Shown here piece after piece: positions 11,664 through 19,975 of a DNA stretch of 21,304 nt. Source of the DNA: a virus. The notes beneath the pieces were generated by a model. That model did not search any database. It was not told where the DNA came from and saw only the letters and a list, made by a program, of their open reading frames with translations. The translations under genes were made by a program, and so were the position numbers. Location of the stretch: IMG/VR virus record IMGVR_UViG_3300047476_000561, positions 1 through 21,304 of that record. One strand, written 5' to 3'. Numbering within the stretch: the stretch's first letter is position 1; each line of letters opens with the position of its first letter.

Positions 11664-11863
11664 TACTTACCCATGTTTCTATAAACTTTATTTACAAACT
11701 TCTTACCTGCTTTAGTAATGCCACCAATAACACGAGGTGCTCCTAGCATTGCATAGTCAACAGGATTGCTTGGGTCAAATACCCAATCCTTAATAAACTT
11801 CACATTGCCAGATGGCTTAACCTTATTAGTTTGTTTTAGGTTTGTTTTCTTAGAAGCAGCCAT
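11663..11863 (-). CDS. Small basic protein (66 aa)
   Basis: A 66-aa protein beginning MAASKKTNLKQTNKVKPSGN. It shares a weak internal block (KPSGNVKFI) with the KPKSNVKVV block of the two upstream paralogs, which hints that it is a diverged member of the same set. The second half (DWVFDPSNPVDYAMLGAPRV) is less basic and looks folded. It ends RNMGK, and the codons for that tail (GGGTAAGTAATG) also supply a purine-rich ribosome site for the next gene. Overlaps by one base occur on both sides. The function is unknown. Confidence 0.6.
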   Translation of the reverse strand: MAASKKTNLKQTNKVKPSGNVKFIKDWVFDPSNPVDYAMLGAPRVIGGITKAGKKFVNKVYRNMGK

Positions 11864-12129
11864 TACTTGCCTCGTTGTTTTTTGAGTTTATTAATTTCTT
11901 TTTCAATAAAATTATTTGTTCTTGCTTTTTGTGCAGAGGTCATAGGTGGTGCCTTGGGTAAAGATTTAAGAATTGCATCTACATCTTTTGGCTTAACCTT
12001 TTTAAAATTCGGTACAACCTTAACATTTGATTTAGGTTTAGATACAGTTGTGGACTTTGTGCCACGGCCCTTCATGCCAGTCGGCTTAATCTTCTTAACA
12101 GCCTTAATTGCTTTGATTGGGTTTGCCAT
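11863..12129 (-). CDS. Small lysine-rich protein, paralog of the next upstream gene (88 aa)
   Basis: An 88-aa protein with 22 Lys and 3 Arg against only 4 acidic residues. Its first 13 residues (MANPIKAIKAVKK) are identical to those of the gene directly upstream, and a second block, KPKSNVKVVP, is also shared; at DNA level the first 34 bases differ at one position. This marks a recent tandem duplication followed by divergence. The C-terminus is a basic helix (FIEKEINKLKKQRGK). Start and upstream stop abut exactly (TAA then ATG), and GAGGCAAG just before acts as ribosome site. The composition fits nucleic-acid binding or condensation, but no family is recognised. Confidence 0.65.
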   Translation of the reverse strand: MANPIKAIKAVKKIKPTGMKGRGTKSTTVSKPKSNVKVVPNFKKVKPKDVDAILKSLPKAPPMTSAQKARTNNFIEKEINKLKKQRGK

Positions 12130-12501
12130 TTACTTGCCTCGCTTTGGATTACTATTAATTTTAATTACTGGTTTTCCTTCTTTTTTAATTGCTGCATCCT
12201 TACGTTTTGCACGAGGTCCCTCTCCACGCCAACTTTTTGGATACTCAGATGGGTGCATTCCAGCAAGTCTTTCTTGACTGCTATAGTACTTGCTAAGTTG
12301 TTTATCAAATCTATAATCTTGTGCACGCTCTGAGCGTTGTGATTTACTTAATTTTGCACCACGATTTTCAAGACCAGTCTTAGGTGCAGTTTTAGAAGGT
12401 ACAACTTTAACGTTTGATTTTGGTTTAATTTTTTTAGCAGGTGAAGTTTTTTTCACTACTACTTTTTTAACAGCCTTAATGGCTTTGATTGGGTTTGCCA
12501 T
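12130..12501 (-). CDS. Lysine-rich basic protein, first of six after terminase (123 aa)
   Basis: A 123-aa protein starting MANPIKAIKAVKKVVVKK, with a Lys/Pro-rich N-terminal third (KKIKPKSNVKVVPSK), a polar middle with a predicted helix (SQRSERAQDYRFDKQLSKYY) and a basic tail ending PKRGK. The N-terminal 13 residues and the KPKSNVKVVP block are shared with the following gene. The codons of its C-terminal Arg-Gly-Lys contain the GAGGCAAG that serves the next start, so the duplicated unit includes the translation signal. It lies 9 bases downstream of the terminase stop. A role in DNA condensation or head assembly is possible; nothing catalytic is visible. Confidence 0.65.
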   Translation of the reverse strand: MANPIKAIKAVKKVVVKKTSPAKKIKPKSNVKVVPSKTAPKTGLENRGAKLSKSQRSERAQDYRFDKQLSKYYSSQERLAGMHPSEYPKSWRGEGPRAKRKDAAIKKEGKPVIKINSNPKRGK

Positions 12502-15526: not shown

Positions 15527-15561
15527 GGATTTCCCCTGAGATAATGCTCAGGGGAAAATCC
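15527..15561 (+). promoter_or_regulatory. Strong hairpin between the first two early genes
   Basis: GGATTTCCCCTGAG (15527-15540) pairs with CTCAGGGGAAAATCC (15547-15561) over 14 base pairs with one bulged A; the loop is ATAATG. There is no T-run, so it is unlikely to be an intrinsic terminator. It ends ten bases before the AAAGGAGATAG ribosome site of the next gene and may stabilise or cleave the transcript. Confidence 0.65.
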
Positions 15562-17029: not shown

Positions 17030-17131
17030 GATAAATGTATTGGTATCTATAGTCAATCAGTAGAGAAATCTGAAATGATGTTATAGCGGGCCGCCACTAG
17101 CCATACCATAGTGGATACCAATGCATTTGTT
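17030..17131 (+). ncRNA. Candidate structured leader/ncRNA with an 18-bp closing stem
   Basis: The left arm 17030-17047 pairs with the right arm 17114-17131 over 18 base pairs without a mismatch, three of them G-U in the plus-strand RNA (at 17032/17129, 17038/17123 and 17030/17131); in the opposite strand these would be A-C, so the plus strand is favoured. The enclosed 66 bases include a stem CACTA/TAGTG (17095-17099 with 17109-17113) stacked directly on the closing stem, and a weak TCAG/CTGA stem. It lies between the lysozyme-like gene and the DUF4192-like gene, 27 bases before the latter's start. Function unknown; RNA status is inferred from pairing only. Confidence 0.4.
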
Positions 17132-17158
17132 AACCCAACAACTAACAAAGGAGATAGC

Positions 17159-17695
17159 ATGACAACAAAAGAAGCAATCCGTAATGAGATTCTTAGCGAG
17201 TTATTACTTGCCAAAGAATCATACAATCCTGACAGCAAGGATGACAACATCCGTATTGTTGAGAATGTTCGTAAAGCAGTAGATGAAATGGCAGATGGTA
17301 TCAATCCATCAGCAAAGCACATCGCTGAACTAGCAGTTGCTGCTAAAGAAAACATACAAGTTCGTGACTTCTTAATGGGATTGCGTGCTGAAAAAGACTT
17401 TAAGTTTGTAGGAGAATACCTTGAGTATATGGTTGAGTTAATCAAGAAAGATTATTCTTATCCATTAGCAGCAGTTCTAACTACATACTTCTACGAGCAC
17501 GGTGCCTCTGATACAGCCAAGGATTTACTTGAGCAAGTATTAGATACAGACCCAGAGTATGCACTAGGTAAACTATTGCAAAGAGTTTACGCTGCCGAGT
17601 GGCCAGCAGAATCTATGGCTGACATGGCTAAACAACTACACCACAAAATTATAGATACAATCTACGAGACAGAGGAATCAGATGACAACAACTAA
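17159..17695 (+). CDS. DUF4192-like helical protein (178 aa)
   Basis: A 178-aa protein from ATG at 17159, chosen over an in-frame GTG at 17111 because AAAGGAGATAGC lies directly before the ATG and the GTG falls inside a predicted RNA stem. The C-terminal half (YPLAAVLTTYFYEHGASDTA then LLEQVLDTDPEYALGKLLQR) follows the helix pattern of the C-terminal part of actinobacterial DUF4192 proteins (a TPR-like arrangement with aspartate-proline and aliphatic turns). The usual N-terminal part of DUF4192 is not evident, so it may be a shortened relative. Function is unknown for the family. It overlaps the DUF932 gene by 14 bases. Confidence 0.7.
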   Translation: MTTKEAIRNEILSELLLAKESYNPDSKDDNIRIVENVRKAVDEMADGINPSAKHIAELAVAAKENIQVRDFLMGLRAEKDFKFVGEYLEYMVELIKKDYSYPLAAVLTTYFYEHGASDTAKDLLEQVLDTDPEYALGKLLQRVYAAEWPAESMADMAKQLHHKIIDTIYETEESDDNN

Positions 17696-19126: not shown

Positions 19127-19135
19127 TGTTATACT
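19127..19135 (+). promoter_or_regulatory. Candidate extended -10 promoter
   Basis: TG-T-TATACT (19127-19135) fits the extended -10 form TGnTATAAT with one mismatch. No good -35 is seen, as often with extended -10 promoters. Transcription would start near 19142, exactly at the first base of the downstream hairpin, so the transcript would begin with that structure. Confidence 0.45.
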
Positions 19136-19141
19136 AATCTT

Positions 19142-19192
19142 GAGTGCCCCGATTTTGGCTATCTCCTTTCTCGGGGCTACTCATAAAGGAGA
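19142..19192 (+). promoter_or_regulatory. Hairpin with anti-Shine-Dalgarno loop, candidate pseudoknot
   Basis: GCCCCGA (19146-19152) pairs with TCGGGGC (19171-19177), extended by GAGT/ACTC (19142-19145 with 19179-19182) across one bulged T. The 18-base loop contains TCTCCTTT (19162-19169), a perfect complement of AAAGGAGA (19185-19192), the ribosome site of the nuclease gene at 19196. Pairing of loop and site would form an H-type pseudoknot (7-bp and 8-bp stems, loops of 9, 1 and 7 bases) that hides the ribosome site. The loop also reads GCTATCTCCTTT, a full complement of AAAGGAGATAGC, used upstream of other early genes. Confidence 0.55.
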
Positions 19193-19195
19193 GCA

Positions 19196-19975
19196 ATGGC
19201 ACACTTACAAATAGAACGAGATAGATACGGCAGACCACTAGTAGTTCCACCCAAAGGTGGTAAGCCAGTAGCATATACAAGAGCAACTACAATTGCTAAC
19301 TCATTAGATGATGCGTCAGCATTAGTTGCCTGGAAGATGCGTATGGCAGCCATTGGTTTAACAACTAGGCCAGACATATTGTTATCTATTAGCGCAGCAC
19401 AAGATGACAAAATGGCAGTCAATTCTTTTATTGAAGATGCTATGCAAGTAGCAGGTGCAAACAAAGCAGCAAACATTGGCACCGCTATACATTCATTTGC
19501 AGAGCGACTAGATTTAGGATTAGAGTTAGGTGTCATACCACCTGAATATTTACCAGATATAAAAGCGTATGAAGAAACAACTAAGATTCTCAACAACAAG
19601 TTCATTGAACAGTTCAGTGTGCTAGACAAATACAAAATTGCTGGCACACCAGATAGAGTTGTTGAGTATAACGGCGAGTTATTTATTGCAGATATTAAGA
19701 CAGGTCGAATAGACCATCCAAATAATATCTCAATTCAGTTGGCTATCTATGCCAACGGCTTGCCGTATGACCCTGCTACGGCAACCCGTGGCACATGGGG
19801 AGATGTAAACAAAGAGAAGGCAATCATTATTCATTTACCTGCAGGTAGTGGCACGTGCAAACTAGTGTGGATAGATATTAAAGAAGGCCATAAGGGTTTA
19901 CAATTCGCTATGAAAGCAAGACAATGGAGAGACCAAAAAGGTCTTTCTTATCCGTTCGAACAGGAGAACAAATAG
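19196..19975 (+). CDS. PD-(D/E)XK exonuclease (RecB/Cas4-like)
   Basis: A 259-aa nuclease of the PD-(D/E)XK superfamily. A conserved His lies in GTAIHSFAERLDLG (His99), the acidic motif in IAGTPDRV (Asp153), the core in ELFIADIKTG (Asp166-x-Lys168), and a QLAIYANG motif follows (Gln181, Tyr185). This arrangement is the RecB/Cas4-type exonuclease module that cuts DNA ends with Mg2+. The four Cys of Cas4 iron-sulphur enzymes are missing, so it is closer to phage recombination exonucleases. It starts with ATG at 19196 after AAAGGAGA and is preceded by the hairpin described above. Its stop overlaps the start of the next gene by one base, so it probably works with the zinc protein and the ATPase in replication or recombination. 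Confidence 0.85.
   Translation: MAHLQIERDRYGRPLVVPPKGGKPVAYTRATTIANSLDDASALVAWKMRMAAIGLTTRPDILLSISAAQDDKMAVNSFIEDAMQVAGANKAANIGTAIHSFAERLDLGLELGVIPPEYLPDIKAYEETTKILNNKFIEQFSVLDKYKIAGTPDRVVEYNGELFIADIKTGRIDHPNNISIQLAIYANGLPYDPATATRGTWGDVNKEKAIIIHLPAGSGTCKLVWIDIKEGHKGLQFAMKARQWRDQKGLSYPFEQENK

Follow-up and report, generated by a model that had tools for sequence, protein, structure and literature searches.

The leader of a Cas4-like exonuclease gene in a tailed phage carries a hairpin whose loop displays an anti-Shine-Dalgarno (anti-SD) sequence, which raises the question of the ribosome sites with which this loop pairs. The initial annotation proposed a pseudoknot switch in which the loop hides the ribosome site of the nuclease gene itself. 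The window, i.e., the whole stretch of DNA analyzed, is an entire virus record of IMG/VR and comprises 21,304 bases. The phage resembles actinobacteriophages. The minus strand of the window carries a structural block, including the terminase and portal genes, and the plus strand a block with the genes for DUF932 and DUF4192 proteins, the Cas4-like exonuclease (phrog_466), a gp49-like protein, and a DnaB-like helicase. In the structural block, two adjacent small genes (window 11863-12501, minus strand) have an identical beginning, MANPIKAIKAVKK, and are likely a tandem duplication. The features discussed below are listed in Table 1.

Table 1. Coordinates of the nuclease leader hairpin and of the ribosome sites complementary to its loop.
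Feature	Position	Strand	Evidence
SAS-like site AAAGGAGATAG before gene 15586; 11 bases complementary to loop	15571..15581	+	sequence, duplex prediction
SAS-like site AGGAGATAGC before GTG start 15994; 10 bases complementary to loop	15983..15992	+	sequence, duplex prediction
SAS-like site AAAGGAGATAGC before ATG 17159 (DUF4192 gene); 12 bases complementary to loop	17147..17158	+	sequence, duplex prediction
SAS-like site AAGGAGATAGC before gene 18675; 11 bases complementary to loop	18664..18674	+	sequence, duplex prediction
Extended -10 element TGTTATACT of the promoter, with a start predicted at the hairpin or immediately 5' of it	19127..19135	+	sequence
Stem 5' arm: GAGT 19142-19145 and GCCCCGA 19146-19152	19142..19152	+	sequence, fold, covariation
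Loop TTTTGGCTATCTCCTTTC, 18 bases; GCTATCTCCTTT, anti-SAS; TCTCCTTT (19162-19169), portion matching own site	19153..19170	+	sequence
Stem 3' arm: TCGGGGC 19171-19177, bulged T 19178, ACTC 19179-19182	19171..19182	+	sequence, fold
Nuclease ribosome site AAAGGAGA, 8-base cis complement of the loop	19185..19192	+	sequence
Cas4-like PD-(D/E)XK exonuclease gene, with the hairpin in its leader	19196..19975	+	phrog_466, E 3e-61

The leader hairpin and its conservation

Both the sequence and the fold contain the 11-bp stem and 18-base loop that had been claimed, and the minimum free energy structure adds the pair U19141-A19183, giving a stem of 12 bp and an energy of -21.3 kcal/mol. The fold energy of this single hairpin is only modestly unusual, with a z of -1.98 alone and -1.21 in a longer stretch, and the hairpin matched no Rfam family. 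The extended -10 element six bases 5' of the hairpin was likewise correctly annotated; neither a -35 element nor a full promoter was detected upstream of the hairpin by a simple sigma-70 scan. No terminator was predicted between the hairpin and the nuclease gene. In many relatives, a TATACT or TACACT -10-like element lies 5-9 bases 5' of the hairpin, which is consistent with a hairpin located at the very 5' end of the transcript.

Exonuclease relatives were collected from IMG/VR with five queries, resulting in 324 loci with enough upstream sequence and 120 distinct leaders. A stem closing a loop with the anti-SD core was present in all 120 distinct leaders, with the core reading (G/A)TCTCCTT in nearly all of them. 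The stem sequence turns over across these leaders and the loop core stays, being the most conserved part. Covariation was counted in an independent MAFFT alignment of 35 diverse leaders, from which the stem was recovered by RNAalifold. Double-sided compensatory changes were seen at eight out of eight modelled stem pairs, and the alignment held 66 cells with such changes versus 19.9 in shuffles. The covariation score was 0.682 versus 0.318 in shuffles, none of the 500 shuffles reached it, and slid versions of the structure scored far lower (0.05-0.18). In a hand-anchored count over 62 different stems, 98% of the pairs were canonical and most positions held four to six pair types; this count is biased, as the stems were picked by a search rewarding pairing. 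When random windows containing CTCC served as a control, approximately 6% of them scored equally well, some being the hairpin itself. As a single hairpin of this kind is thus not rare, the evidence lies in its presence in all 120 leaders. We conclude that the hairpin is real and conserved and not a product of chance.

The best cultured relative of the nuclease has 39.9% identity, and no relative was found in the GTDB genomes. Mycobacterium prophage FSAT01, Dulem virus 32, and Streptomyces phage Saftant were considered as sources of leaders and rejected, because in all three the gene overlaps or abuts the previous gene and leaves no leader. A pattern search of IMG/VR for similar GC stems with this loop returned mostly unrelated loci.

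Possible pairing of the loop with the ribosome site of the nuclease

In the window, TCTCCTTT is indeed a perfect complement of the nuclease ribosome site AAAGGAGA, which is separated from the 3' arm of the stem by AT. The spacings given in the initial annotation were slightly off, as the loop complement and the site are 15 and not 16 bases apart and the site lies three and not four bases before the ATG at 19196. Nearly all relatives retain such a complement, 7-8 bases long, immediately 3' of the stem. It lies a few bases past the stem and reads AAAGGAGA in the clade with the ATA loop type and AAGGAGAC in the other clades. In the ACT and ACA clades, this complement is mostly located 11-18 bases before the start codon, and a second SD-like stretch lies closer to the start. 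Since it is kept even away from the Shine-Dalgarno distance, ribosome spacing alone does not account for it, and pairing of the loop in cis with the site beside the stem appears credible.

The geometry of such a pairing was assessed with a simple A-RNA model. The linker in the window is 2 nt (or 1) and a stem of 11-12 bp needs about 6, so that an H-type pseudoknot requires the opening of about four lower pairs. Simultaneous stem and loop-site pairing, as originally put forward, therefore fails for the whole 11-12-bp stem, which 2 nt cannot span, and becomes possible when about four lower pairs are opened. In the same model, opening of zero to four lower pairs permits the pseudoknot in most sequences, the number needed differing among the relatives.

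Compensatory changes between the loop and the ribosome site in related phages had been suggested as a check of the switch, and the outcome was divided. The core is invariant in the loop and in the own site. In the ATA clade, the two read TCTCCTTT/AAAGGAGA; in the ACT and ACA clades, they read GTCTCCTT/AAGGAGAC. One shifted pair compensates, but the extension does not: in the ATA clade, none of the 55 own sites carries the ATA extension.

Joint change of the loop and the SAS-like sites of upstream genes

Each of the four GGAGATAG sites in the window precedes a start codon. The loop matches these upstream-gene sites over 10-12 bases compared to 8 at the own site of the nuclease, and the predicted loop duplex energies range from -16.1 to -19.4 for the four sites versus -13.7 for the own site. 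The motif consists of an SD core with conservation beyond it; GGAGATA stands before four genes of the window and is dominant among the early genes of the clade. To our knowledge, the extension bases of these SAS-like sites do not match the 3' tail of 16S rRNA, and pairing with rRNA thus does not explain the extension. Near two of the sites we noted further details. The start at 17111 of the listed ORF 17111-17695 is probably wrong; ATG 17159 directly follows the SAS AAAGGAGATAGC. A terminator-like hairpin, TTTCCCCTGAG ATAATG CTCAGGGGAAAA, is located at window positions 15532-15560, just 5' of the SAS of gene 15586.

Across the relatives, the extension after GGAG in the upstream genes follows the loop of the clade (types ATA, ACT, ACA, and AAC). 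The early-gene extension is ATA with an ATA loop (88 sites), ACTA (64) or ACAG (25) with an ACT loop, and ACA or ACG with an ACA loop. At finer resolution, ACTAA loops occur with ACTA(A) sites, ACAAG loops with ACAA(G) or ACG sites, and AAC loops with AAA or AAT sites. The clade motif is AAAGGAGATAGC in the clade of the window, and AAGGAGACTAA and AAGGAGACAAG in other clades. Some early sites deviate, namely ACAG in ACT-loop phages and the ACA and ACT sites of one locus with an ACG loop (L329). Orthologous families 3, 6, 11, and 13 carry the extension of the clade's loop, in contrast to families 1, 7, and 8, which lie downstream of the hairpin; within-family permutation gave a p of 0.005. In 111 out of 112 loci belonging to the three main loop types, the antisense 9-mer is present a single time, within the loop, and the sense motif is present zero to six times.

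Swapping of loops between clades weakened the predicted pairing. ATA sites paired with the own-clade loop at -15.5 kcal/mol versus -11.3 and -12.2 kcal/mol with swapped loops, and ACT sites at -14.3 versus -11.7 and -12.7 kcal/mol. Swapped loops were weaker in each of three clades, with Wilcoxon p values from 5e-5 to 5e-17 that are not corrected for phylogeny. Loop type and site type fall into the same clades of the nuclease tree, in which the loop type has switched independently approximately four or five times, each switch involving several dispersed genes at once. The loop-swap statistics are consequently not phylogenetically independent. As judged from the sequences, these patterns suggest that the loop and the early-gene sites have coevolved as a built-in RNA switch that would turn those genes down.

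In the explanation that we consider fairly probable, a 5'-terminal anti-SAS hairpin represses early ribosome sites by pairing with them in trans, in competition with a weaker pairing in cis. The nuclease and replication transcript would begin with the stem, and the loop would display the complement of the phage's own extended SD, which is AAAGGAGATAGC here. In the cell, the loop could bind this motif on the mRNAs of several upstream genes, probably expressed earlier, and block ribosome binding at their sites. As transcription of the replication operon rises, the SAS genes would be turned down. Once the lower stem opens, the same loop may pair, more weakly (8 versus 10-12 bases), with the nuclease ribosome site, which would be free when SAS mRNAs are abundant and would close when they are scarce. 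The fuller match to the outside sites, together with the pseudoknot geometry, suggests to us that the loop is adapted to outside partners and that the own site is a weaker partner that could compete. A free small RNA with its own terminator was considered and rejected, as no terminator was found 3' of the hairpin; the hairpin is instead predicted to act as part of the mRNA or after processing or cleavage. If the proposal is true, a single mRNA leader would provide temporal control in the phage by acting on the ribosome sites of an entire set of early genes.

The loop might, on the other hand, pair exclusively with the ribosome site of its own mRNA and control only the nuclease operon, its other matches reflecting a shared Shine-Dalgarno character. 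Much of the originally proposed cis switch has held up, namely the structure, its 5'-terminal place, the anti-SD loop, and the conserved complement 3' of the stem. In the ACT and ACA clades, moreover, the position of this complement beyond a nearer second SD points to a role other than ribosome binding, and opening of at most four lower pairs would bring the pseudoknot within reach of most sequences. However, the loop covaries with the sites of other genes, which a loop acting only in cis has no reason to track. Its variable extension (TA, TTA, CTTG) matches the sites of the early genes and not that of the nuclease, as seen throughout the ATA clade, and the outer stem pairs that would be required to open also covary (alignment columns 12-14/48-50). 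Control in cis only is thus unlikely in our view, although it deserves consideration.

We find it quite improbable that a phage regulator recognizes the SAS motif and its inverted copy as DNA sites, similar to stoperators, with the hairpin being just the inverted-repeat setting of one such site. An altered regulator specificity would likewise change all sites together, the SAS of Cluster K was first found as repeats, and relatives carry dyads over the promoter. Yet the sites coincide with the SD at a fixed distance from the starts (four out of four in the window), and the stem stays paired through a complete turnover of its sequence, which is not required of a DNA site. An ordinary 5'-terminal stability hairpin, with an incidental or decoy anti-SD loop, would agree with the location right after the promoter and with the protection of mRNAs by 5'-end hairpins. 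As the loop is the most conserved part of the 120 leaders, the stem varies, and the loop extension is matched to the clade, this last explanation is very improbable.

Known systems and the SAS of Cluster K phages

SAS (GGGATAGGAGCCC) is an extended SD of Cluster K mycobacteriophages that is conserved beyond rRNA pairing (PMC3203893), and a SAS-like GGGAAAGGACCCC is present in Cluster EF Microbacterium phages (PMC7302621). Since 2011, the puzzle has been that it is conserved past the needs of the ribosome and lacks a known partner. The Cluster K paper of that year stated that the partner, RNA or protein, 'remains to be determined' (PMC3203893), and papers from 2024-2025 still describe the role of SAS as unclear (PMC11373665, PMC12699233). 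The sites described here are similar in that an over-conserved extended SD precedes several genes, mainly outside the structural ones, with an extension that 16S rRNA leaves unexplained. In contrast to Cluster K and EF, a conserved hairpin with an exact complement covaries with the motif here. Because the motifs of the window's clade and of the other clades differ from the Cluster K consensus, we regard the system as an analogue of the SAS system and not as a member of it. The SAS of Cluster K is often accompanied by ESAS, a promoter-linked inverted repeat of 17 bp located upstream. Here, dyads over the promoter were seen, by eye only, in ACT and ACA relatives, e.g., in L064, L065, L066, and L074 (GCAGAC..GTCTGC; GAATAGTAC..GTACTATTC); they resemble the ESAS repeats and are possibly an operator.

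In Staphylococcus aureus, the C-rich loops of RNAIII and RsaE act in trans on the SD regions of several mRNAs (PMC2837412, PMC11188477). The leader hairpin shares with them an anti-SD loop complementary to the SDs of several mRNAs and the proposed block in trans. However, RNAIII and RsaE are separate bacterial small RNAs, whereas the hairpin belongs to a phage mRNA 5' leader, is followed by no terminator, shows no homology to them, and fits, through its loop, an extended SD that is specific to the phage. Leader pseudoknots also control translation, as in T4 gene 32, S15, and the preQ1-type riboswitches. There, as here, the SD region of the same mRNA is available for pairing to a loop close to the 5' end. 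Unlike in those cases, the stem and linker lengths forbid a full H-type pseudoknot without stem opening, and conservation is confined to the anti-SD core, with neither a conserved ligand or protein pocket nor an Rfam match. A literature search limited to open papers revealed no earlier description of a phage hairpin that matches a phage SAS. The new reading is that of a coevolving anti-SAS hairpin, which we regard as stronger than the cis pseudoknot; SAS was known before only in Cluster K and EF phages, with its partner unnamed there. Coevolution over hundreds of freshwater phage contigs makes the hairpin a candidate phage-encoded RNA partner of a SAS-like motif.

When Cluster K was viewed with this idea, a lone inverted SAS was found in Mycobacterium phage Anaya, in the 10-base loop that caps a long hairpin at record position 59870, within a 385-base intergenic gap. 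The gap is conserved in 177 records. A perfect anti-SAS loop accompanied by stem changes was observed only in five K1-type phages (Anaya, Angelica, Validus, Shaobing, and Enkosi), and seven Cluster K phages deviate from the anti-SAS loop (Hammy, Unicorn, Syra333, Keshu, LeMond, Yuna, and SirPhilip). A reverse site in ZoeJ was rejected as an anti-SAS, being the ordinary SAS of a leftward gene. Given the deviating phages and ZoeJ, the extension of the anti-SAS hairpin to Cluster K is suggestive only. More broadly, and as a tentative idea, actinophages might use a private SD/anti-SD code, in which a SAS-marked gene set and one complementary phage hairpin coevolve and the set is switched off during infection; this would explain the SAS of Cluster K, too. 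As a separate observation, the Anaya gap (L166:9782-10166, Mycobacterium phage Anaya 59682-60066) corresponds to a conserved structured intergenic region of about 300 bases in Cluster K phages, possibly a non-coding RNA.
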